From Cognaticolwellia sediminilitoris (GTDB lineage Bacteria; Pseudomonadota; Gammaproteobacteria; Enterobacterales; Alteromonadaceae), in NCBI GenBank assembly GCA_002104535.1, contig NBOG01000008.1, forward strand, positions 62,001 through 126,000: DNA of 64,000 nucleotides, given 5' to 3'. The notes beneath the pieces were generated by a model. The model searched no databases, had not been told where the DNA came from, and saw nothing but the letters and a program-made list of their open reading frames with translations. Positions 6,477-62,924 of this stretch are shown in pieces. Numbering within the stretch: the first letter of the stretch is position 1; each line of letters starts with the position of its first letter. Both the position numbers and the translations under genes were made by a program.

Positions 6477-6499
6477 TTCAACTAAACTAGTTAGTTGAA
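6477..6499. promoter_or_regulatory. Palindrome upstream of the MbnH/MbnP-like operon
   Basis: Perfect 9-bp arms TTCAACTAA and TTAGTTGAA around ACTAG. It lies about 190 bp before the first operon gene in a 330-bp gap that otherwise shows nothing I recognise. The size and symmetry suit a regulator-binding site; no T run follows, so a terminator is less likely. Confidence 0.45.
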
Positions 6500-6686
6500 C
6501 TCAGCTGTTTCACTTATATATAGGTAACACAGCCTTCAGCACCACATTGACCATGAACTTAGCAAGAGCATAGCTAGTATTAAATAAACAGGCAGCCGTT
6601 TTATATCAATAGTACGAGGTAATGTTTACCTGTTTTATGCGTTTGTTCAAAATATTAAACAAACAAATAATTAAAGGGACATTAAC

Positions 6687-8060
6687 ATGAGTAACACATT
6701 ACTAATTGCCTTAGCCATTGTCATTCTTAGCGGCTGTAGCGAACCAAGTAAAACTACCAATATTGCAGCTACGGATATAACTGAAACGCGTAGCAAAGCA
6801 CTTATCGAAAAAGACAACTCAGAAAACAGTGGAGTTAACATTGAAGAAACACAAGCAATGGTCTTACTGAGTGGCCTACCAACTTTAGGTACAACCGATA
6901 GTATTGCTATTATTGAATTAGATCCTGAATCTGACAATTTCGGCGACATACTTTATGACTACCCCCTTCCCAAGCTTGATGCTCCTATGCATCATTTATA
7001 TTACAGCCCAACTGGGCGGTTATATGCCACGGGGCTAGGCTCTCAGTGTAGCTTGGCTGAAATCGAACTAGTGAGAAACGCTAAAGCAGAGCCTATAATT
7101 AACAACTTCGAATGTCTGAACACCAATGGGCAAAATGTTGGTGAAGATATCATGTGGCATAATGTTAATGGTGAATTAACTATGTTCGTTACTTTTATGG
7201 GTGGTTCCGATTTAAGTCAAGTTGACACCGGTACAATCGGCGTTTTTAACGCTCAAAATAACCAAGTAATAAAAATTATTGAAGCAAGAGAGTCACAAGT
7301 AGAGCCAGGGCAGCCTTACATTAAGTTTCCACATGGCATTTCAGCCTACAAAGATAGAATGGTGGTTACCTCTTCCACACACCCCACCATCCCGACAGAA
7401 GTTGGCAATACCATCACCATTATCGACTTGAACACTTTAGAGCCTATTGAAACTATAGTTATTGAAGATGCTAAACCCGTAGGCTTCCCTTCTTCTCCTG
7501 TTGAAGTACTTTTCGTTCGCCCCAGCATTGTCGAAAATGTAAAGCCGGCTATTTTGGTTAACACCTTATTTGGCTTTGAGACTTGGAAAGTGCCTTACAA
7601 TGAGCAAACTAAAACCTTTAGTGCACCAGAAAAATTATATGACGGTGCTACCTCTGGCACAGCGGTTCCGTTAGAGTTTTATGGTAATAATGATGAACTA
7701 TTTATCAGCCATGGCGTACCCGGTATTGTCAAACGCTATGACCTCAAACAACTGCCCAATTTAGTTTCTTCAGGTGAAGATATAAAAGCTGAAAGTGGCG
7801 CTCATCACATGATATTTTACAAAACAGCATCTGGACGAAAACTAATTGCGATACAAAACAATTTATTAAATTTAGGTGATGCTAAAGACGATGACCCGAC
7901 CGATATAGATTTTCTTGTTAAGTTGAACCATCATTCCGTTACGGTACATGACCTGGAAACTGGTGAGCGACTTGGTGAAATTAATTTTAAAGAAAAATAC
8001 AAAAAAGGCATCGACAACATTGAAGCCTTATTTGGCTCTGGCTTCACACATCACCATTAA
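6687..8060 (+). CDS. Beta-propeller-like lipoprotein of the MbnH/MbnP-like operon
   Basis: 457 residues. The start MSNTLLIALAIVILSGCSE has a lipobox (LSGC) with the acylated Cys at 17, so it should be anchored in the envelope facing the periplasm or the surface. The rest is beta-rich with repeated propeller-blade-like strands (LYYSPTGRLYATGLG, VGEDIMWHNVNG, MVVTSSTHPTIPT, ELFISHGVPGIVKRYD, VTVHDLETGERLGEI), resembling YncE/selenium-binding-protein-type propellers. Histidine clusters (MHHLYY, AHHMIFY, NHHSVTVHD and a C-terminal THHH) could bind metal; this is inference. An ATG with AAAGGGAC upstream fits the start. The diheme peroxidase gene follows after 6 bp, so they are surely one operon. 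Exact function unknown. Confidence 0.7.
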   Translation: MSNTLLIALAIVILSGCSEPSKTTNIAATDITETRSKALIEKDNSENSGVNIEETQAMVLLSGLPTLGTTDSIAIIELDPESDNFGDILYDYPLPKLDAPMHHLYYSPTGRLYATGLGSQCSLAEIELVRNAKAEPIINNFECLNTNGQNVGEDIMWHNVNGELTMFVTFMGGSDLSQVDTGTIGVFNAQNNQVIKIIEARESQVEPGQPYIKFPHGISAYKDRMVVTSSTHPTIPTEVGNTITIIDLNTLEPIETIVIEDAKPVGFPSSPVEVLFVRPSIVENVKPAILVNTLFGFETWKVPYNEQTKTFSAPEKLYDGATSGTAVPLEFYGNNDELFISHGVPGIVKRYDLKQLPNLVSSGEDIKAESGAHHMIFYKTASGRKLIAIQNNLLNLGDAKDDDPTDIDFLVKLNHHSVTVHDLETGERLGEINFKEKYKKGIDNIEALFGSGFTHHH

Positions 8061-8066
8061 TCCCTA

Positions 8067-9197
8067 ATGAAAGTCAGCACAATAGTTGTCACTATCGCTG
8101 TTATATTTATAGCGTTAGCGGCCACTATTTACTCTCTACAAAATAGAGCACCGAACACACACCCAATCGAATTCACTGCACCTTTTGTTTTCGGCCGCTT
8201 TAATGTTCCAGTCGATAATCCTTTAACTCAAGAGTCTGTTTTACTTGGTAGAAGGCTTTTTTACGACCCCATATTGTCTAGTAACAATCAAGTATCTTGC
8301 GCAACTTGTCATAAACAAGCCTTAGCGTTTACCGATGGTTTAAAGACATCAATCGGTGTCTCAGGGATCCCGCTTAAATTTAATGCCATGAGCCTGGCAA
8401 ATTTAATGTGGGGACCTCGGCATTTTTTTTGGGATGGTCGTGTTTCATCTTTAGAAGCGCAAGCGATAGAGCCAATCAAACATGTTAATGAAATGGCGCG
8501 CGATTTAGAGCAATTGATCATTGATTTAAATAATGATGAACTTTACAAAAAACTCTTTAAAAAAGCTTATGGCGAAATTAGCGAAAAAAGCATAGCTAAA
8601 GCCTTAGCTAACTTTCAACGAACCCTGATTTCGGCAAATTCACGATATGATCAATATTTACGTGGTGAAATTTCGCTTAGCCCATTAGAGAATCAAGGGC
8701 GCAAGCTTTTTATGGCGCATCCTGATACTAAAGTGGTGTTACGTGGCGGAAATTGTATTGATTGTCATAGTCAGTTTCTAACGAGCGGATTTGGTAGTAA
8801 ATTTGATGGCTTTAGTAATAACGGCTTAGATAATGACCAAACTCTACAAGAAGGCTTATTTATATTAACTCAAAATGAAGCACATAGAGGCTTATTTAAA
8901 GCTCCAACCCTCAGAAACATTGCAGTTACTGCACCCTATATGCATGACGGCCGCTTTACCACTTTGGAGGAAGTTTTAGCACATTACAATGGTGGTATTA
9001 AACGCAGTAAAACCCTGAGTCCATTAATAATTGAAGCTGATAATATTGCCAAAACACAACTCGATCACATCAGCTTAAACCTCAATGATAATGAAATAAC
9101 CGCTATTATCGCATTCTTACATACGTTAACTGATGACGAATTCTTAACGAATAGTGCATTTTCAAATCCATTTATGGCAGATACTAGTGATGACTAA
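8067..9197 (+). CDS. Diheme cytochrome c peroxidase / MauG family enzyme, MbnH-like
   Basis: 376 residues with an N-terminal membrane or signal segment (4-22), hence periplasmic. Two c-type heme sites are present: C78-A-T-C-H82 and C230-I-D-C-H234. The segment FWDGRVSSLEAQAIEPI (about 121-137) contains the Trp that lies between the hemes in this superfamily, and KAPTLRNIAVTAPYMHDGRF (278-297) is the C-terminal signature. Family members either reduce hydrogen peroxide (CcpA type) or oxidise protein tryptophans (MauG, MbnH). The next gene encodes an MbnP-like protein, so the MbnH role, oxidising Trp in its partner to kynurenine, is favoured. The MbnP-like gene starts inside the end of this one. 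Confidence 0.9.
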   Translation: MKVSTIVVTIAVIFIALAATIYSLQNRAPNTHPIEFTAPFVFGRFNVPVDNPLTQESVLLGRRLFYDPILSSNNQVSCATCHKQALAFTDGLKTSIGVSGIPLKFNAMSLANLMWGPRHFFWDGRVSSLEAQAIEPIKHVNEMARDLEQLIIDLNNDELYKKLFKKAYGEISEKSIAKALANFQRTLISANSRYDQYLRGEISLSPLENQGRKLFMAHPDTKVVLRGGNCIDCHSQFLTSGFGSKFDGFSNNGLDNDQTLQEGLFILTQNEAHRGLFKAPTLRNIAVTAPYMHDGRFTTLEEVLAHYNGGIKRSKTLSPLIIEADNIAKTQLDHISLNLNDNEITAIIAFLHTLTDDEFLTNSAFSNPFMADTSDD

Positions 9198-9996
9198 ATC
9201 TAGCAACAATACCGCTAACATTATGACGGTTAACAAAAAAACAATAACTTTTGCCTTTTTAGCATTAGTTACTGTACTGGTAGTTGTTGTGGTTTTACTT
9301 CGTCCTGCACCACAAAACATAACTTTGCGATTTCACCCCTTTGTTGGCGACAACCCTTTTCTGTTAAACACACAAAGCTACCAAAATCCTGGTGGTGATG
9401 GTGAATTTACCGTCCGTGATTTTCAGTTATTTATTAGTAATATCGTTTTAAGCTCGCCGACAAATCAAATCAACGAACAAGAAAGCTACCATTTGCTCAG
9501 GTTTGACGGAAATAGTGCTTTCGACCAAATTGTTATCCCCCAAATTAAACTTAGAAGCCATAACCAGTTATCATTCGGTATTGGTGTTGATCCAAAAGCT
9601 AATGGCTCACTCATGTTTTCTGGTGATTTAGATCCCAACAGCCGTATGGCTTGGAACTGGCAAGTAGGTTATAAGTTTTTATTATTAGAAGGAACATTAA
9701 CGGTTAATAAGCAGCAATTGCCTTTGGTCTATCATATTGGCTTCGACGAAAGTTACACCGAACTCAACTTTGACATAGCGAATAAAATTATGCCGGAAAA
9801 TGGTGTTATTAATTTCAAAATAGACTTACAGCGTTTATTTCAAAAAGACAATTCTCATGACGTTATACCAACTCAGCCACAACTACCCCAAGACATTGAG
9901 TATATTGATATGTATAAAATGTCTCATGTGAAGTTCTCTCCTGAAGATGTAAAAAGCATTGCCAACGGATTCAATCACTTTATTACTATTATGTAA
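9190..9996 (+). CDS. MbnP-like periplasmic protein (candidate copper-binding partner of the diheme enzyme)
   Basis: 268 residues from the ATG at 9190, which overlaps the end of the peroxidase gene; an upstream ATG at 9154 and a later one at 9223 are alternatives. A hydrophobic segment at residues 18-37 acts as signal or anchor. The mature part shows the MbnP domain pattern: beta strand LRFHPFVGDNPF, Tyr-Asn-Gly turn, FTVRDFQLFISNIVL, YHLLRFDG, LSFGIGVDPKANG, SGDLDPNSRMAWNWQVGYKF. W155 and W157 are the only tryptophans in the protein. In methanotroph MbnP a Trp is converted to kynurenine by MbnH and the protein binds copper. That this homologue does the same is inference. Confidence 0.8.
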   Translation: MTKSSNNTANIMTVNKKTITFAFLALVTVLVVVVVLLRPAPQNITLRFHPFVGDNPFLLNTQSYQNPGGDGEFTVRDFQLFISNIVLSSPTNQINEQESYHLLRFDGNSAFDQIVIPQIKLRSHNQLSFGIGVDPKANGSLMFSGDLDPNSRMAWNWQVGYKFLLLEGTLTVNKQQLPLVYHIGFDESYTELNFDIANKIMPENGVINFKIDLQRLFQKDNSHDVIPTQPQLPQDIEYIDMYKMSHVKFSPEDVKSIANGFNHFITIM

Positions 9997-10456: not shown

Positions 10457-11221
10457 ATGCTAAAAACTATAAATAAATTGGGGAAAACACTCGCAATTCT
10501 ATCTGGTTGTTTAGGCGCGCAAGCGCTAGCACAAGATAGCGGAGAATGGGATTTGAATTTTGGCATAAAAACCAATCATTTGTGGCATGGCTTTATTGTT
10601 ACAGATGGCGTTATGACTGCTGGGGCATTAGAGTATAAGACTGCAGATAAAAACACCACGTTCGGACTTTGGGCTGGCGGTTCGTTCAACGGAGAATACA
10701 AAGAGTTTACGTACTATGCATCGCATAAATTTTCAGACCATTTCTTTGTCGAGGTAGTCAATCACGGCAATCACTCAGGCATTCCTGATAGCGAAGTAGA
10801 TATTTTCAATTATTCTTCTGACGACACTAAAACAGGTAATTTTACCGATATTGGCATCGGGTACACTTTTACAGGTGACACGCCAATTTCAATTTATTAT
10901 GCCATTATCGTTCAAGGCGTAGATAAACACATTGACGAAAAGTCAGCCGAAGTTCAACGCTCTTACACTAATTATATTGAAGTTTCAGCACCCGTTTGGC
11001 ACGGTAAAAATGGCGAAACTGTTAACGCTTTTATCGGTGGTGCATTCTCTCCAGTTCATAAGCGAAATTTCTACTCTGATAATGCCAACATAAATAACCT
11101 CGGATTTACTTTTTCAAAAGAGCTTAAGGTATTAAATACAACCTTACCAGTTTCGGCAACAGCAATGTGGAATCCAGCACTCAATCATGGCGCGCTGCAA
11201 GTCGCCATTGACTTGTTCTGA
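10457..11221 (+). CDS. Outer-membrane beta-barrel protein, putative porin of the polyol locus
   Basis: 254 residues with a signal peptide ending at about residue 26 (AQALAQ|DSG). The mature chain alternates polar and aromatic residues in short strands (WDLNFGIKTNHLWHGF, FGLWAGGSFNG, FTYYASHKF, FTDIGIGYTF, YIEVSAPVWHG) and ends with a terminal Phe (LQVAIDLF), the usual outer-membrane assembly signal. This resembles the TIGR02001/TorF-type putative porins but the assignment is not firm. It lies 207 bp before the NCS1-type permease in the same direction, so a role in passing the sugar alcohol through the outer membrane is plausible but not shown. Confidence 0.65.
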   Translation: MLKTINKLGKTLAILSGCLGAQALAQDSGEWDLNFGIKTNHLWHGFIVTDGVMTAGALEYKTADKNTTFGLWAGGSFNGEYKEFTYYASHKFSDHFFVEVVNHGNHSGIPDSEVDIFNYSSDDTKTGNFTDIGIGYTFTGDTPISIYYAIIVQGVDKHIDEKSAEVQRSYTNYIEVSAPVWHGKNGETVNAFIGGAFSPVHKRNFYSDNANINNLGFTFSKELKVLNTTLPVSATAMWNPALNHGALQVAIDLF

Positions 11222-11428
11222 ATTAGCTCACGGCAAAGATATTGAAATTTTTGAACAACTAAAAATAGTCGGCTTGCAGATGTAAAGGCAGCATAGATTT
11301 TAGTTAACTATTATAAAACGGTAAAATTATTAACGCTTAATCAGCAAAGATTAATAATTTTAGTCTAAAAAAAGATTTATCACTTAACCGCTTATTTACG
11401 CCACGTTAGTGATAACAAGGAAATAAAA

Positions 11429-13144
11429 ATGGCTAATATTGAAAGAGAGTGTTCATTTAGTGAAGTAAATGAAGAACAAATGCCCGTTGCAAAAAGCAAA
11501 TTGCATGGTTGGAAACATTTTGCCGGTTTATATGCTGGCGAACATGTCGCCGCAACAGAATTTGTGATCGGCGCAACCTTTGTTGCATTGGGGGCTGCAA
11601 CGACAGATATTTTGCTCGGTTTATTAATTGGTAATTTATTAGCTATGTGTTCTTGGTGGTTGTTAACGGCGCCCATAGCCGTTGAAACCCGATTAAGTTT
11701 ATATAATTACCTTAATAAGATTGCCGGTAATTCAATGACCAAGCTTTATAACTGGGCTAATGTAGTGATATTTTCGGTGATCTCCGCCGCCATGATCACC
11801 GTCTCCTCCACCGCTGTCAGATTCTTGTTTGATATACCCGCACAACTCAATTGGTATCCCAGTAGCTTTTGGTTTGTTGCCATTGTTCTAGCTGTTGGCT
11901 CTATCGTGGTAATTGTGGCTATGTATGGATTTTCAACCGTTGCTGACTTTTCTAAAATATGTGCACCTTGGTTATTTGTTATCTTTATTTCTGGGTCGTT
12001 TACTTTATTTCCAGCCTTATCTCACCATGTATTAGGCACTACAACCCTTGCCGACTGGCGAGACTTCATTACCATTGGCGATAGTTCCATTTGGACTGGT
12101 TTCACCACCGATGGCGAGAAAGGTATCGGGTTATTGGAAGTCATTGGTTTTGCATGGGCCGCTAACTCTATTACCCATTTTGGCTTAATTGACATGGCGA
12201 TATTCCGTTTCGCGAAACGCAAAAGATACGGGTTATTATCGGGCGTAGGGATGTTTTTTGGTCATTATTTAGCCTGGATTTCTGCCGGTATTATGGGCGC
12301 AGGTGCTGCGGTATTACTGAAAACAACGATCACGGCCTTAGACCCAGGCGACGTTGCTTACCATGCCTTAGGTTTAACAGGTTTTGTTATTATTATAATT
12401 GCCGGTTGGACTACCGCTAACGCCAACCTTTATCGCGCAGGATTAGCGGCGCAATCTATTTTTGTTAATCACTCACGCGAAAAAACAACTGCAATAGTCG
12501 GTGTTGTTACGGTGATCATTGCCTGTTTTCCTTTCGTTTTTTCACAAATGTTACCACTACTAACTTATGCCGGCTTATTAGTGGTACCCGTTGGCGGCAT
12601 CGTTTTTGCTGAACATGTATTATTTCCAAAAATTGGCTTAACTCGTTACTGGGCTAAGTACCAAAATATATCTCGCAGCATCCCAGCAATTGCCACGTGG
12701 GCACTGGCGTTAGTATTTGGGTTTGGCTTAAATGCGCTCGATGTCATGTCATTCTATTACTTATTTATACCGACATGGATATTCAGCATTATTATTTACA
12801 CTGTTTTAGCGAAAAAATATGGTGCAGACAAAGACTATACCCCACAAGTTGAAGCTGAAGCGCTTGAGCAATACCAAATGGTGAACTATCAGGCTGAACA
12901 AGCAGTTAACGAGAAAGCCTTTATCGTTGACACTAGCCAATTCAGTAAAGTATTGAATGCAATATCGACGATTTCATTAATAATTATTAGCGTTTTTGCT
13001 AGTCAGGTGATGTTTTTTAGCGAAACCATGGCAATTTATGAGGCGAATAAGGTGCAATTTGAATTGTACTGTTTCATTTTTACCATCTTGTATTTTTCCA
13101 GCGCATATATATCGCTTAAACGTCAAAAGGCACTTAATAAGTAG
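11429..13144 (+). CDS. NCS1-type (purine-cytosine permease family) transporter, candidate polyol permease
   Basis: 571 residues with about 12 hydrophobic segments. N-terminal GEHVAATEFVIGATFVALG and the following GNLLAMCSWWLLTAPIAVE correspond to the first helices of the nucleobase/cation symporter-1 family. The ATG at 11429 follows AAGGAAAT. A longer hydrophilic stretch (about 470-505) precedes two extra C-terminal helices, which is unusual compared with CodB-like members of about 420 residues. Most known NCS1 substrates are nucleobases, hydantoins, thiamine or allantoin. Here every downstream gene is for mannitol/fructose use, so a polyol substrate is the contextual inference. Confidence 0.75.
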   Translation: MANIERECSFSEVNEEQMPVAKSKLHGWKHFAGLYAGEHVAATEFVIGATFVALGAATTDILLGLLIGNLLAMCSWWLLTAPIAVETRLSLYNYLNKIAGNSMTKLYNWANVVIFSVISAAMITVSSTAVRFLFDIPAQLNWYPSSFWFVAIVLAVGSIVVIVAMYGFSTVADFSKICAPWLFVIFISGSFTLFPALSHHVLGTTTLADWRDFITIGDSSIWTGFTTDGEKGIGLLEVIGFAWAANSITHFGLIDMAIFRFAKRKRYGLLSGVGMFFGHYLAWISAGIMGAGAAVLLKTTITALDPGDVAYHALGLTGFVIIIIAGWTTANANLYRAGLAAQSIFVNHSREKTTAIVGVVTVIIACFPFVFSQMLPLLTYAGLLVVPVGGIVFAEHVLFPKIGLTRYWAKYQNISRSIPAIATWALALVFGFGLNALDVMSFYYLFIPTWIFSIIIYTVLAKKYGADKDYTPQVEAEALEQYQMVNYQAEQAVNEKAFIVDTSQFSKVLNAISTISLIIISVFASQVMFFSETMAIYEANKVQFELYCFIFTILYFSSAYISLKRQKALNK

Positions 13145-13190
13145 TTGTTACATTAAGTCTGACAACAACGAACTTATAAATTAAAGCAGC

Positions 13191-13233
13191 CGTTATATTC
13201 AGCCTAAGCATTATCAGCTCGCTGAATATAACG
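13191..13233. promoter_or_regulatory. 13-bp inverted repeat between the permease and mannitol dehydrogenase genes
   Basis: Arms CGTTATATTCAGC (13191-13203) and GCTGAATATAACG (13221-13233) match perfectly across a 17-base spacer. It lies about 90 bp before the dehydrogenase start. It could be the SorC-family operator or a stem-loop that sets the relative expression of permease and enzymes. No T run follows. Confidence 0.5.
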
Positions 13234-13319
13234 AAAAACAAACAGTTCAACGGGGTGACCGACATTATTGTCCCCCTGATTACACTTTAGCTTCAGTCCT
13301 AATTAGCAAGGCCAAAAAA

Positions 13320-14876
13320 ATGACTAATTCTCCACATAACGAAAGCCAAACAGAAGATTTAATGCAATCGTTAAATCAATTAACCTTAGCTGATCTTCCA
13401 AGCGATATTGATATTCCAAACTACGATCGTAGTAAACTTAAAGCTGGTATTGTGCATATTGGTGTAGGTGGTTTTCACCGTGCACATCAAGCGATGTATA
13501 TTAATGAATTATTAAAAAGCCCAGGCTCAGAACAATGGGCGATTTGTGGTATTGGCTTACTGGAAAACAATCGTAGCTTGCGCGATACTTTAGTAAAGCA
13601 AGATTATCTCTATTCTTTAGTGGTACGTCATCCAAATGGACAAATCGATAATAAAGTCATTGGCTCAATGATCGACTTTATTTTTGCGCCTGACAACAAG
13701 CAAAGCGTTATCGATAAATTAGCTGATAGCAATACTAAAATTGTTTCGTTAACCATCACCGAAGGTGGCTATAACTTAAATCCAACCACGGGTGAGCTTG
13801 ATTTAGAAAACCCGGGCATTGCTCATGACATTGCACATCCTGATGAACCCAAAACGGCCTTTGGGTATATCGCTGCGGCATTAAAAATCCGCAAGGAGAA
13901 TAATAACCAAGCTTTTACCGTGCAATCGTGTGACAACATTCAGCACAATGGTGCGGTAACACGAAAAATGCTACTGACCTTTACCGCACAGCAAGACCCT
14001 GAACTAAGTGCATGGATCGCTCAACATGTTGCCTTCCCCAATGCGATGGTAGATCGCATTACACCGGTTACCACAAAAGTTGAGATTGATTATGTCGCAA
14101 CAACCTATGGCTTAAAAGATGAATGGCCGATCACCTGTGAGTCGTTTTCACAATGGGTTATTGAAGATAACTTTAGTGACGGTCGCCCTAACTGGGACTT
14201 AGCCGGTGCACAATTTGTCTGTGACGTAACCCCGTTTGAAAAAATGAAAATTCGCTTATTAAATGCCGGCCACTCTGTATTAGGTTTATTGGGCGCTATT
14301 CATGGCTACGCTACTATAGATGAAACCGTGTCTAATCAAGATTTTGCTGTGTTCTTGCGGGCTTATATGGACTTAGAAGTAACCCCTCTACTGGATCAAT
14401 TAGACGGCATTGATATAGAACAATACAAAGACACCTTAATTGAGCGTTTTTCAAATCCGAATATCAAAGATAGTTTAGCGCGTATTTGCAGCGAAAGTTC
14501 AGCAAAATTGCCCAAGTTTTTAATTGCCACTATCACAGAAAACTTGGCGGAAAAACGTGATTGTTCGTTAGCCGCATTAGTCATAGCGACTTGGTGTTTA
14601 TACAGCGACAAGCAAGTAAACCAAGCACAAGAAGCGCTAGATATCCAAGATGCGATGCGAGATGAACTTCACCGATATGCACAAAATACAGCAACAGACA
14701 AGCTCGCCTTTTTAAAACTTAACATTATTTTTGATGATTTAATTGCCCATCCAGCGTTTAGTCAACTGTACCTGAATGCCATTAATTTACTTTATGTACC
14801 CGCGAGTAATATTAAAAATATTATGAAAAATACCCTTGAGCAAAAGTTGCATAAAGTTGCTGCGGAGACCAAGTAA
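13320..14876 (+). CDS. Mannitol 2-dehydrogenase family (polyol:NAD oxidoreductase)
   Basis: Oxidises mannitol to fructose with NAD(P). 518 residues, slightly longer than the usual 480-500 because of an N-terminal extension of about 35 residues. The Rossmann motif HIGVGGFHRAHQA (46-58) is typical of the long-chain polyol dehydrogenases. Catalytic K310, N315 and H318 sit in KMKIRLLNAGHSVLG, with the Asn of DNIQHNG at 210 as the further active-site residue. Other members act on arabinitol, sorbitol or uronates (UxuB), so the substrate rests on context. The stop codon overlaps the start of the fructokinase gene (TAATG), indicating translational coupling. Confidence 0.9.
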   Translation: MTNSPHNESQTEDLMQSLNQLTLADLPSDIDIPNYDRSKLKAGIVHIGVGGFHRAHQAMYINELLKSPGSEQWAICGIGLLENNRSLRDTLVKQDYLYSLVVRHPNGQIDNKVIGSMIDFIFAPDNKQSVIDKLADSNTKIVSLTITEGGYNLNPTTGELDLENPGIAHDIAHPDEPKTAFGYIAAALKIRKENNNQAFTVQSCDNIQHNGAVTRKMLLTFTAQQDPELSAWIAQHVAFPNAMVDRITPVTTKVEIDYVATTYGLKDEWPITCESFSQWVIEDNFSDGRPNWDLAGAQFVCDVTPFEKMKIRLLNAGHSVLGLLGAIHGYATIDETVSNQDFAVFLRAYMDLEVTPLLDQLDGIDIEQYKDTLIERFSNPNIKDSLARICSESSAKLPKFLIATITENLAEKRDCSLAALVIATWCLYSDKQVNQAQEALDIQDAMRDELHRYAQNTATDKLAFLKLNIIFDDLIAHPAFSQLYLNAINLLYVPASNIKNIMKNTLEQKLHKVAAETK

Positions 14877-15796
14877 TGAACAGCTTATTCATCAACCATA
14901 AAGCCGCTAGCGAAATTTCTATCAGTTGTTTTGGTGAAGTATTATGGGATTGTTTCGCCAGCGGTAAACGTTTGGGTGGTGCGCCGTTGAATGTTTGCTT
15001 ACGGTTAAATTCGCTCGGTATAAAAGCTCAAATGTTAAGTGCTGTTGGCGATGACGTTTTAGGCAAAGAATTGTTCGAGGTTATTAAGTCGCGCAACATT
15101 AAAACTGACTTTATCGGGATTAATCCTGATAAAAAAACCAGTACGGTGGACGTTTTACTAGATCATCACGGTTCAGCCACATACGAAATTGTTGCCGATA
15201 CGGCTTGGGATAACATTACCTTAACTCCAGACCTTACTGAGCAAGTAAAAATATCTGACATTTTGGTCTTTGGTAGCTTAGTGGCTCGTGAAGCTGCATC
15301 ATTAAAGACTTTAAAGCAATTAATTAATGTCGCACAATTTAAAATTTTTGATGTTAACTTACGTAAGCCACATTATGAACTGAATACCTTAATGGAATTA
15401 ATGCAGGCGGCTGATTTTATTAAACTCAACGATGATGAGCTTTACGAAATAGCACATGCTATGGGCTCTCAATTCAACTCGTTAGAGCAAAACGTTGAAT
15501 TTATTGCCGAAAAAACAAATACGCCTTTCATGTGTGTAACCAAAGGGTCTCATGGTGCACTACTGAAAATTAATGACCAAAATTACTATAATTCAGGCTA
15601 CCTGATTAACGTGGTTGACACCGTTGGCGCCGGCGATGCATTTTTAGGCTCTTTAATCTATCAACTTTGCAATACCACTAATGCGCAATATGCGGTTGAT
15701 TTTGCCTGCGCTGTCGGCGCTATGGTGGCACAAAGCCATGGCGCGACACCTGAGTTATCAATGAATGCTATTGAACAATTTATGAATCCACTATGA
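14876..15796 (+). CDS. PfkB-family fructokinase
   Basis: Phosphorylates fructose, probably at C6, to feed glycolysis. 306 residues. The N-terminal FGEVLWDCF and GGAPLNVCLRLNSLG segments are those of bacterial fructokinases; the C-terminal DTVGAGDAFLGSL carries the anion hole and the catalytic Asp, and DVNLRKPHY the central strand. Its start overlaps the stop of the dehydrogenase gene. With that gene it makes the path mannitol to fructose to fructose 6-phosphate. Confidence 0.92.
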   Translation: MNSLFINHKAASEISISCFGEVLWDCFASGKRLGGAPLNVCLRLNSLGIKAQMLSAVGDDVLGKELFEVIKSRNIKTDFIGINPDKKTSTVDVLLDHHGSATYEIVADTAWDNITLTPDLTEQVKISDILVFGSLVAREAASLKTLKQLINVAQFKIFDVNLRKPHYELNTLMELMQAADFIKLNDDELYEIAHAMGSQFNSLEQNVEFIAEKTNTPFMCVTKGSHGALLKINDQNYYNSGYLINVVDTVGAGDAFLGSLIYQLCNTTNAQYAVDFACAVGAMVAQSHGATPELSMNAIEQFMNPL

Positions 15797-15881
15797 TTTA
15801 TACCCATTCCAATGGTTTATAAAAGCTTGTAACCTAGTTAGAAAGTGATTATGGGTCAAAATGCAATAAGGATAATTTAAG

Positions 15882-16601
15882 TTGATTAAATCTAAAGCTT
15901 TATCCATACCTAACGAAATAAGTTTGATTATTTTTGATTGTGATGGCGTGTTGGTAGATAGTGAGATACTCAGCCAACGTGTGTTGTTAAGCCTGCTGAA
16001 AGAAATTGATGTCGATGTAAGCGAAGAATATTTTCTAAACAATTTCTTAGGGTATAATTTTGAGCATGTGACCGCTAAAGTCTTAGCAGACTTTTCAGTT
16101 ACTTTAACCCGTGATTTTCGTGAAAACTTTCGCGTGGAATTGATCAAAGTTTTTGCAGCAGAATTACAAAAGACTCAGCATCTTGATTGGCTACTATCTC
16201 AACTTAGTGTCAACAGTTGTGTTGCGACTAGTGGCAGTCCTGAAAAAGTAAAACACTCGCTGCACTATACCAAGCTCGAACCGTATTTTAACGACCGAGT
16301 ATTTACCTCTTCAGAGGTTGAAAATGGCAAACCAGCGCCAGATTTATTTTTACATGCAGCTAAACGTATGGGTGTTGAACCGCAAAACTGTTTGGTGTTA
16401 GAAGACTCAAAAGCAGGTATCTGCGCAGCACAAGCAGCCAATATGCATGTAATTCGGTATATTGGTGCTAGTCACTTGAAAACGAAAGATATCACTACTC
16501 AATTACTCGATAGTGTTAGTACAATAAGCCATTGGAAGCAATTATTTGAGCTGGTACCTTCGCTTAGTTCATCAGTTAAATCGAGAGGAAAACCGTGTTA
16601 A
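15882..16601 (+). CDS. HAD-superfamily hydrolase, beta-phosphoglucomutase/phosphatase-like
   Basis: 239 residues; TTG start at 15882 with AAGGAT upstream. HAD motif I is FDCDGVLVDSE (nucleophile Asp19, acid/base Asp21), motif II CVATSGSP, the Lys of motif III lies in ENGKPAPDLFLHAA, and motif IV is VLEDSKAGICAA. The helical cap follows motif I, as in subfamily IA. Likely substrates are sugar phosphates; in this operon mannitol 1-phosphate or fructose phosphate is conceivable, perhaps to relieve toxic accumulation. The reaction cannot be read from the sequence. It overlaps the regulator gene by 7 bases. Confidence 0.88.
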   Translation: MIKSKALSIPNEISLIIFDCDGVLVDSEILSQRVLLSLLKEIDVDVSEEYFLNNFLGYNFEHVTAKVLADFSVTLTRDFRENFRVELIKVFAAELQKTQHLDWLLSQLSVNSCVATSGSPEKVKHSLHYTKLEPYFNDRVFTSSEVENGKPAPDLFLHAAKRMGVEPQNCLVLEDSKAGICAAQAANMHVIRYIGASHLKTKDITTQLLDSVSTISHWKQLFELVPSLSSSVKSRGKPC

Positions 16602-17554
16602 AGCGTTCTAATTCAGAAATAAGAAAACTAGACGACGCCGCTAAAGCAGGTTGGTTGTATTATGTTGCTGGCAATACGCAAGAAGAAATTGCTAAAAAAC
16701 TCAATGTCTCGCGTCAATCTGCACAACGTATGGTAGCGTTATCGGTCAGCGAGGGCTTGATTAAAGTCAGGCTAGAGCATCCAATCGCTAAGTGCATGGA
16801 CTTGCAATTAAAAATCAAAAACCGCTTTGGATTACAGTCTTGTATTGTCGTGCCAAGTGATACGAGTGAGCCAAATTCGACCTTAGGACTGGCGCAAGCC
16901 GGCGCAAAAGAAATAGAGCTGCACTTAAAATCAACCGAACCGAAAGTAATAGCAATGGGCACAGGTCGAGTATTACGCGCTTGTGTAGAAGAATTATCAT
17001 TGTTGAACTGTGAACAACATCAAATTGTTGCCTTACTCGGCAACATGGCGTCAGATGGTTCCGCGTCATCATACGATGTGGTAATGCGCATGGCTGAGCA
17101 CATTAACGCTAAACATTACCCTATGCCATTACCCGTGCTGCCAAACAGTAAAGAAGAAAAAGAGCAGTTGCACGCCCAGCGTTATATCGCTAACAATCTG
17201 AAGTTAGCCGCGCAAGCGGATGTAACTTTTATTGGCGTGGGTAATCTAGCGATTAACTCTCCGCTGCACATCGACGGTTTTGTCACGCCAAAAGAGCTCA
17301 AGGAGTTGCAAACCAAAGGAGCGGTTGGAGAATTAATTAGTTGGGTGTTAGACGTTAACGGTAATTTAATTGATTGCGCCGTTAACCAACGTGTTGCTAG
17401 CACCCCTTTGCAAGTTAATCCTGATAAAGCGGTATACGCTATTGCGGCAGGTGAAGAAAAGGTTTTTGCCATATTAGGAGCGCTGAGATCTAAATTAATT
17501 AATGGTTTAATCACCAATGAATATACCGCTGAAAGACTACTAAGCATAGATTAA
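16595..17554 (+). CDS. SorC/DeoR-type sugar-binding transcriptional regulator
   Basis: 319 residues; GTG start at 16595 with GAGAGGAA upstream, overlapping the HAD gene. The N-terminal helix-turn-helix (about 27-48) is TQEEIAKKLNVSRQSAQR, then the SorC sugar-phosphate-binding domain with GTGRVLRACVEEL, GNMASDGSASSYDVV, and the TFIGVGNLA and IDGFVTPKEL segments of the NagB-like fold. It is the last gene of the polyol operon before pgi and is the likely local regulator, with fructose 6-phosphate or a polyol phosphate as probable effector (inference). Confidence 0.9.
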   Translation: MLKRSNSEIRKLDDAAKAGWLYYVAGNTQEEIAKKLNVSRQSAQRMVALSVSEGLIKVRLEHPIAKCMDLQLKIKNRFGLQSCIVVPSDTSEPNSTLGLAQAGAKEIELHLKSTEPKVIAMGTGRVLRACVEELSLLNCEQHQIVALLGNMASDGSASSYDVVMRMAEHINAKHYPMPLPVLPNSKEEKEQLHAQRYIANNLKLAAQADVTFIGVGNLAINSPLHIDGFVTPKELKELQTKGAVGELISWVLDVNGNLIDCAVNQRVASTPLQVNPDKAVYAIAAGEEKVFAILGALRSKLINGLITNEYTAERLLSID

Positions 17555-61328: not shown

Positions 61329-62924
61329 ATGCAGCAATCATTTATGAGTGCGTTTTATAAAAACTTTTTAGGTAACTCGCCTGAATGGTACAAACTCGCA
61401 ATAATTTCATTTTTATTTATCAATCCATTGCTATTCTTTTTTGTAGATCCCTACATAGCTGGTTGGGCTTTGGTTATTGAGTTTATCTTCACTTTAGCAA
61501 TGGCCCTAAAATGTTATCCATTGCAACCCGGTGGTTTATTAGCAATTGAAGCCGTCGCCATCGGTATGACAAGCCCTAACCAAGTCATGCATGAAATGAT
61601 TTTAAACTTTGAAGTTATCTTATTGTTAATCTTCATGGTTGCGGGTATCTATTTCATGAAGAGCTTACTGCTATTTTTGTTCACCAAAATAGTAACTAAA
61701 GTTCGCTCTAAAGTAATGGTGTCTTTACTGTTTTGTTTCTCTGGCGCGTTCTTATCAGCTTTCTTAGATGCATTAACGGTTATTGCAGTAATCATCAGTG
61801 TAGCTGTTGGTTTTTACTCTGTTTATCATAAGGTTGCCTCAGGCAAAGAAGTGTTGGTTGATCATGACCATGACCACACTACTGATAACGAATTAGCTGA
61901 ATATTCTCGTAATGATTTAGAACAATTTCGTGGTTATTTACGTAACCTAATGATGCATGCTGGTGTTGGTACTGCTTTAGGCGGTGTTTGTACTATTGTA
62001 GGCGAACCTCAAAACTTAGTTATTGGCCAACAAGCAGGCTGGGAATTTCTTGAATTTGCCATTCGTATGTCACCGGTTACAATTCCAGTATTTTTTGCAG
62101 GTATGTTGACTTGCGTACTTTTAGAAAAGATAAAATGGTTTGGCTACGGTGTAGCTTTACCCGATAATGTTTATAATATTTTAAATGAGTATGATATTGC
62201 TCAAAGCGCTAAGCGCAATAAGCTTGATAATGTAAAGCTTATTATGCAAGGTGTTATTGCTGTTTGGTTAATTGTTGGTTTAGCGCTACATTTAGCCCCT
62301 GTTGGCATGATTGGTTTATCGGTAATTATTCTTGCCACTGCATTTACCGGTGTGACTGAAGAGCACCAAATTGGTCATGCTTTTGAAGAAGCATTACCTT
62401 TTACCGCGTTACTTGCGGTATTTTTTGCCGTGGTTGCCGTCATTGTTGATCAATCATTGTTTACCCCTGTAATTACCTGGGTATTAACTTTTGAAGGAAA
62501 CATGCAACTTGTAATGTTCTATCTAGCAAATGGCTTTTTGTCTATGGTCAGTGACAACGTTTTCGTTGGTACGGTATACATAACAGAGATCACAAAAGCA
62601 TTAGCCGAGGGACAAATTACTCGTGACCAATTTGACTTACTTGCTGTTGCAATTAACACCGGTACTAACTTACCAAGTGTTGCGACACCAAATGGCCAAG
62701 CCGCTTTCTTATTCTTATTAACTTCAGCATTAGCACCGTTAATTCGCTTGTCTTATGGGCGCATGGTTATTATGGCTTTGCCATATACGATTGTATTAAC
62801 GATTGTTGGTTTACTGGCAATTTCTACCGGTCAACTGTCAAAATATACTGAAATTTTTTATGAGAATAATATTATTCAGCATCACAGTGCGGGTCCAGCG
62901 ACTAAAGCACCAGGTGGGCATTAA
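61329..62924 (+). CDS. nhaB: Na+/H+ antiporter NhaB
   Basis: Expels sodium in exchange for protons, giving salt and alkali tolerance. 531 residues, close to Vibrio NhaB. Family text: [63 protein letters not shown] and ASAL-type end. About 12 helices, inner membrane. ATG after AAAGGTGCATT. A terminator follows and dsbB is next. (Motifs in parts: [23 protein letters not shown].). Confidence 0.96.

Follow-up and report, generated by a model that had tools for sequence, protein, structure and literature searches.

MbnH is said to make kynurenine of its partner protein MbnP, and the binding of copper by MbnP reportedly depends on that kynurenine. The present analysis concerns relatives of these two proteins encoded side by side in Cognaticolwellia sediminilitoris, where a gene for a beta-propeller lipoprotein precedes them. 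The three genes, here called the trio (gene 1, propeller lipoprotein; gene 2, di-heme MauG/MbnH-type enzyme; gene 3, MbnP-like protein), lie in a stretch of 64,000 nucleotides, the window (positions 62,001 to 126,000 of contig NBOG01000008.1). An earlier note, made from the letters of the window alone, had presented the pair as a stand-alone system without methanobactin genes.

Several described systems resemble the trio in part. Stand-alone MbnPH pairs beyond methanobactin producers and operons were described in 2013, in a report that also states that the MbnP sequence is not markedly similar to MopE or CorA (PMC3621798). In the CorA/CorB and MopE systems of methanotrophs, a protein with a kynurenine copper site shares its transcript with a peroxidase-like di-heme protein (PMC3912023). 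The mtoX operons encode a copper propeller enzyme (the Cu-dependent methanethiol oxidase, MTO, of family SBP56), the copper chaperone SCO1 and a MauG homologue (PMC5739008). Finally, hydrazine synthase combines a seven-bladed propeller, the beta subunit, with a CcP/MauG-like di-heme gamma subunit (PMC12758564).

The earlier note saw no methanobactin genes near the trio, and MbnB (TIGR04159) indeed has no match anywhere in the host genome. However, a stand-alone pair is in itself already known, and this part of the claim was not new. No description of a divergent branch of the pair with inverted gene order and a constant SBP56-like propeller was found in the limited literature searched.

A constant trio of genes

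Relatives of the propeller split into two types. Type A is like the protein of the window and type B is about 30% identical to it. At all 13 loci with a type A propeller the order is propeller-MbnH-MbnP (the window; L010; L017/L146; L036, Colwellia sp. BRX10-3; L037/L099, C. hornerae; L038, Thalassotalea mangrovi; L100-L106), although the assembly splits one gene into two frames at L100 (di-heme gene) and at L106 (propeller gene). Canonical pairs run the other way, MbnP-MbnH, in 10 of 10 cases (L014, L107-L109, L111-L116), and have no such propeller. One more locus, L110, has MbnP with a partner that was not identified. A type A MbnP profile run against 197 genomes of the window's family found 10 full carriers, every one with the propeller, and two further weak hits that are canonical pairs (L107, L108). 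The suggestion of the earlier note that the first gene could be a third component is supported by this neighbour survey.

Across 11 loci, the three proteins have correlated pairwise identities (r 0.94-0.95), as would be expected of a unit moving or descending together. The flanks of the trio are common among Colwellia-type genomes and different elsewhere. Because they differ between genera, the cassette is the unit. A plasmid search gave no match for the propeller or for the MbnP-like protein, and none of the three proteins has a match in PHROGs. At one locus from another family (L146 10469-18003, genome G635) two transposase-like genes, each in two copies, come after the trio, a hint of mobility.

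The di-heme enzyme

Both heme motifs that the earlier note had placed in gene 2 (CxxCH at C78-H82 and C230-H234) are there. The protein matches Pfam CCP_MauG with 188 bits. Its best match in NCBIfam is MbnH (TIGR04039, 262 bits), followed by MauG (177 bits), and the closest solved chain is 6e1c, an MbnH, at 173 bits, ahead of a di-heme peroxidase (128 bits) and MauG (103 bits). Tyrosine fills the column of Y307, which we take to be that of the axial tyrosine ligand of MauG, in 12 of 12 gene 2 relatives and also in canonical MbnH, MauG and the MauG-like proteins of mtoX operons. W122 sits in an FFWDGR segment. The description of gene 2 as MbnH-like stands for the tyrosine and the best match. 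It does not extend to membership of MbnH itself, the score being below the TIGR04039 cut-off of 362.85 bits. In trees the gene 2 type has a clade of its own (support 99/98), and canonical MbnH (98/98 and 100/100) and the mtoX-operon group branch separately from it.

What if gene 2 is a plain cytochrome c peroxidase that detoxifies peroxide, in a neighbourhood that is no more than a loose operon? It does retain the active-site Gln and Glu of the peroxidases (Q132 and E142), and the deep branching order of the di-heme trees is not settled by the data. However, two peroxidase rows in the motif table lack the tyrosine, and the linkage of the genes is constant in 13 loci. In approximately unbiased (AU) tests, a clade with the CcpA-type peroxidases is rejected (p-AU 0.026, with two such rows only), whereas a joint clade with canonical MbnH is not (p-AU 0.335). 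Placement with the mtoX-operon group is borderline (p 0.09). This explanation is very improbable. Sequence comparison favours a di-heme enzyme of the MauG/MbnH type over a CcpA peroxidase, and the clear grouping with CcpA peroxidases that the earlier note had named as fatal to its reading did not appear in the trees.

The nearest outgroup of gene 2 is a di-heme protein on a Photobacterium DA100 plasmid (L117), where neither MbnP nor a propeller is found among the nearby open reading frames. MbnH-type di-heme proteins among the plasmid hits (H2, H5, H7; L120 2369-3529, Methylocystis parvus plasmid) are annotated 'methanobactin export MATE transporter MbnM', apparently a misannotation.

The MbnP-like protein

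Whether gene 3 passes an MbnP profile, a test on which the earlier note had staked its claim, depends on the profile. The protein passes the broad Pfam family MbnP (PF20243) with 127.5 bits against a gathering cut-off of 27, and fails the narrow NCBIfam equivalog TIGR04052 with 33 bits against 140; its relatives reach 39 and 51 bits there. An AlphaFold 2 (AF2) model, of moderate confidence (predicted local distance difference test score, pLDDT, 62.6), has the solved MbnP 7l6g as its only Protein Data Bank (PDB) match with Z above 5 (Z 8.9, 180 residues, 4.3 A). The next entry has Z 4.4. An MbnP-fold protein is thus supported.

Conserved residues were read from an alignment of 12 trio-type proteins and 11 canonical MbnP proteins. 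M153, W155 and W157 of the MAWNW motif (M-x-W-x-W), together with H182, are invariant in 12 of 12 and 11 of 11, respectively, and H101 is invariant among the trio-type proteins. Because both proteins fall below the NCBIfam MbnH and MbnP cut-offs, genes 2 and 3 should be regarded as a divergent branch, distinct from the true MbnPH pair.

The propeller lipoprotein

The earlier note had left the first gene as one of unknown function. Its kind can now be given: gene 1 is, as judged by profile and structure comparison, a distant relative of SBP56/methanethiol oxidase. No Pfam or NCBIfam family matches it above cut-off, and its SBP56 score is 14.6 bits (gathering cut-off 34; best relative 30.4). Nevertheless, SBP56 is the sole Pfam family matched by all 19 aligned propeller relatives (best 4e-7). 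In profile-profile comparison type B matches SBP56 with E 3.5e-31, as against 2.1e-10 for a lactonase-propeller control, and type A alone with 5.8e-5, as against 0.0075. The AF2 model is a propeller (core pLDDT 80-90), seven-bladed like SBP56, a fold that is generic. SBP56 2ece is among its top structural matches, with the longest alignment (Z 23.9, 325 residues).

Ten residues do not vary across 12 proteins of type A and 23 of type B: H102, H103, E153, D154, H216, E273, E330, H373, H374 and H457. All except H457 lie on six strands (101-106, 152-160, 213-221, 271-277, 328-333 and 372-379), which in the model can be read as the innermost strands of successive blades. Three of the ten, H102, H103 and E273, fall in the alignment columns of H88, H89 and E269 of MtoX from R. 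pomeroyi, positions that do not vary in the SBP56 set. In MTO and SELENBP1 the counterparts of these three have been implicated in copper or in activity (PMC5739008, PMC10362175). From the copper-site set HH, H, D, E, H of those proteins gene 1 keeps HH and E, and has the other three replaced. A tryptophan tryptophylquinone, as proposed for MTO, was also considered for the propeller and found no support, two Trp that are invariant in SBP56 not being kept.

Perhaps the propeller is not an enzyme. The trio might be a module that acquires or buffers metal where copper is scarce at sea. The propeller would then capture a metal or cofactor, like AztD (zinc) or the BtuG lipoproteins (cobalamin), and a second copper site of high affinity would come from the MbnH/MbnP-type pair. 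AztD and the BtuG lipoproteins are among the fold matches, the lipoprotein is rich in invariant His, including a C-terminal HHH in 12 of 12 type A proteins, and CorA, a copper-repressed kynurenine-copper protein, has been implicated in copper acquisition (PMC3912023). However, the sequence kinship of the propeller is with SBP56 and not with AztD or BtuG. In addition, no TonB receptor or metal ABC transporter consistently accompanies the cassette across the loci read. An acquisition module therefore seems unlikely to us.

The type B propellers occur without an MbnH/MbnP pair, in Kangiella, Burkholderiales, Rhodobacterales, Rokubacteria, Methylomirabilota, Nitrospirota and others. They often adjoin a membrane protein of about 480 residues (HSFGERYDLPLPL) and a small cupredoxin-like protein of 123 residues, which no family matches above cut-off (L011 6759-8578, L012, L040, L044, L051, L053 and others). 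The type B loci are a system apart, one that is widespread and has the invariant propeller residues in common with the trio.

A model for the trio

The observations to be accommodated are the gene order and its constancy, the families of the proteins, the conserved motifs and the distant homology of the propeller to SBP56. We tentatively favour a self-contained periplasmic cassette, in which a metal-centred propeller lipoprotein has an MbnH/MbnP-type pair of its own, although our confidence that it works as modelled falls slightly short of even. The steps we infer, which involve copper, kynurenine, delivery to the propeller and a substrate, would be as follows. Driven by peroxide, the di-heme enzyme would oxidise W155, the first Trp of MAWNW in the MbnP-like protein. 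The product would probably be kynurenine, and would make the MbnP-like protein competent to hold copper(I), which it would then supply to the propeller or guard for it. A His/Glu ring in the central channel of the propeller would hold the metal and do the chemistry, perhaps the oxidation of a small thiol as in methanethiol oxidase. Relative to the mtoX-SCO1-mauG operon, MbnP would stand in for SCO1 and the MbnH-like enzyme for MauG. The constant company of a propeller related to copper-dependent thiol oxidases suggests that the MbnH/MbnP-like pair serves the propeller rather than methanobactin.

Maturation might not be involved at all if the propeller is joined to the di-heme protein in a single stable enzyme, with the MbnP-like protein as an accessory subunit for copper or electron transfer. 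There are precedents in the beta and gamma subunits of hydrazine synthase and in the docking of MauG on the propeller-containing methylamine dehydrogenase. A propeller with a di-heme protein of the MauG superfamily is a known subunit combination (PMC12758564), the propeller subunit of methylamine dehydrogenase is among the Foldseek matches of gene 1, and genes 1 and 2 are co-conserved (r 0.95). Gene 2 and its relatives also match the hydrazine synthase gamma model, in a short and weak alignment. However, a mere accessory would not need a nearly unchanged MAWNW with its M and both W invariant. The propeller also has an invariant His/Glu set of its own, whereas the beta subunit of hydrazine synthase has no known active site or cofactor (PMC12758564, PMC12607021). 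A single stable enzyme is improbable in our judgement.

Returning to the cassette with its own maturation pair, a number of observations do not fit well. The type A propeller alone matches SBP56 weakly (Prob 51 and 66) and the link runs via type B; propeller profiles attract one another, and several unrelated propellers tie with SBP56 in Z. At the copper site, MtoX H141, D205 and H424 correspond to N161, G217 (beside H216) and D443 of gene 1, and MtoX W223/W250 have no counterpart. The AF2 model of gene 3 is weak around the WxW segment. Conserved cysteine columns and a second invariant His (NH-His) are present across the 11 canonical MbnP rows and absent from all 12 trio-type rows, gene 3 containing no cysteine. 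Finally, no copper or sulphur gene consistently adjoins the trio.

The canonical pair and the wider role of the pairs

A second, canonical MbnP/MbnH pair is present on another contig of the host genome (C1:375476-377372; 169 and 496 bits, above the NCBIfam cut-offs). Gene 2 and this MbnH are the only CCP_MauG genes of that genome. The canonical pair is divergent from a gene for a 919-residue choice-of-anchor B protein (L014 8450-13381; also L107, L150-L154) with an LVIVD repeat, which we take to be a propeller repeat, and Calx-beta and PKD domains. A choice-of-anchor B gene is the divergent neighbour of canonical MbnP in six of the nine searched genomes having one, all six from the same family and the host included, although the nine were picked for carrying one or other pair and the proportion is not a survey. 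Five of the six also carry the trio. Several canonical loci of the class have two extra genes (L112 2480-4181, L114 5194-9050, L115 3732-5397, L116 3640-5308). One codes for a protein of some 300 residues with CSTCxxGDPT, the other for a lipoprotein of some 258. The L115 copies of both have no Pfam or NCBIfam match.

Judged by co-location alone, MbnH/MbnP pairs may have propeller partners more generally. A stronger form of this idea, which we hold to be possible and rather doubtful, is that in these marine bacteria the pairs of MbnH/MbnP type are dedicated to maturing the copper sites of beta-propellers. The trio branch would act on propeller oxidases of a new, metal-centred class, and the canonical pair on the choice-of-anchor B protein. 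If true, the metallo-mystery pair would gain a general client outside methanobactin. For the trio a candidate client can be named, the pair never being found without one propeller type, kin to copper thiol oxidases. The role of MbnH/MbnP pairs in bacteria without methanobactin is thereby made a question testable with three genes.

Organization of the locus

The three genes were said in the earlier note to overlap or nearly overlap in one operon, and they are indeed co-directional and tightly packed (Table 1). Six bases separate genes 1 and 2, and genes 2 and 3 overlap by 8 bases, an overlap also present in four relatives. The best start of gene 3 is the ATG at 9190, not the GTG at 9154. At the Shine-Dalgarno-like site ahead of gene 1, AAGGGACATTA is kept in three Colwellia-type relatives. 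Gene 1 has an LSGC lipobox, in agreement with its earlier designation as a lipoprotein. Genes 2 and 3 open with a single hydrophobic stretch, in place of which some gene 3 relatives carry a lipobox. All three products can be read as membrane-tethered, exported proteins.

Table 1. Features of the trio locus, in window coordinates.
Feature	Position	Strand	Description
Shine-Dalgarno-like AAAGGGA	6673..6679	+	ahead of gene 1; read in the sequence
Gene 1, propeller lipoprotein	6687..8060	+	457 aa; seven-bladed beta-propeller, distant SBP56/methanethiol oxidase relative
Gene 2, di-heme MauG/MbnH-type enzyme	8067..9197	+	376 aa; N-terminal hydrophobic anchor
Gene 3, MbnP-like protein	9190..9996	+	268 aa; N-terminal hydrophobic anchor

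Ahead of the trio is a perfect 9-base inverted repeat, TTCAACTAA-ACTAG-TTAGTTGAA (6477-6499). It was dropped as a candidate operator, its left arm being kept in relatives and its right arm not. Downstream (10457-17551) are genes for a porin-like protein (10457) and a permease-like protein (11429), neither with a family match, and then a sugar-alcohol set of mannitol dehydrogenase, sugar kinase, HAD phosphatase and SorC-type regulator. The porin-like and permease-like genes were dropped as further members of the cassette; they lead into the sugar-alcohol set and are not conserved with the trio.

Comparison with known systems

Like hydrazine synthase, the trio joins a seven-bladed propeller to a CcP/MauG-like di-heme protein. 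With CorA/CorB it shares a kynurenine-type copper protein, putative in the trio, and a di-heme partner; however, no propeller has been described for CorA/CorB or MopE. The MbnH/MbnP pair (TIGR04039/TIGR04052, the metallo-mystery pair) likewise has a di-heme MauG-type enzyme adjoining an MbnP-fold protein with M-x-W-x-W. The trio differs from it in its reverse gene order, scores below the curated cut-offs and constant propeller partner, and gene 3 differs from canonical MbnP in lacking Cys and one of two invariant His.

The mtoX-SCO1-mauG operon also has a propeller, a copper protein and a MauG-family di-heme protein together, and HH and one Glu of the copper site are shared. In R. pomeroyi the mtoX, SCO and peroxidase genes are adjacent. 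The trio has MbnP in place of SCO1, its propeller is a distantly related lipoprotein in which several copper-site and Trp residues are not kept, and the di-heme proteins of the two systems fall into separate clades. Nevertheless, because mtoX operons hold a propeller enzyme, SCO1 and a MauG homologue, the trio looks like a parallel system in which MbnP stands for SCO1. This suggests that a copper enzyme could be made with a copper protein of the kynurenine type in the role of SCO1.

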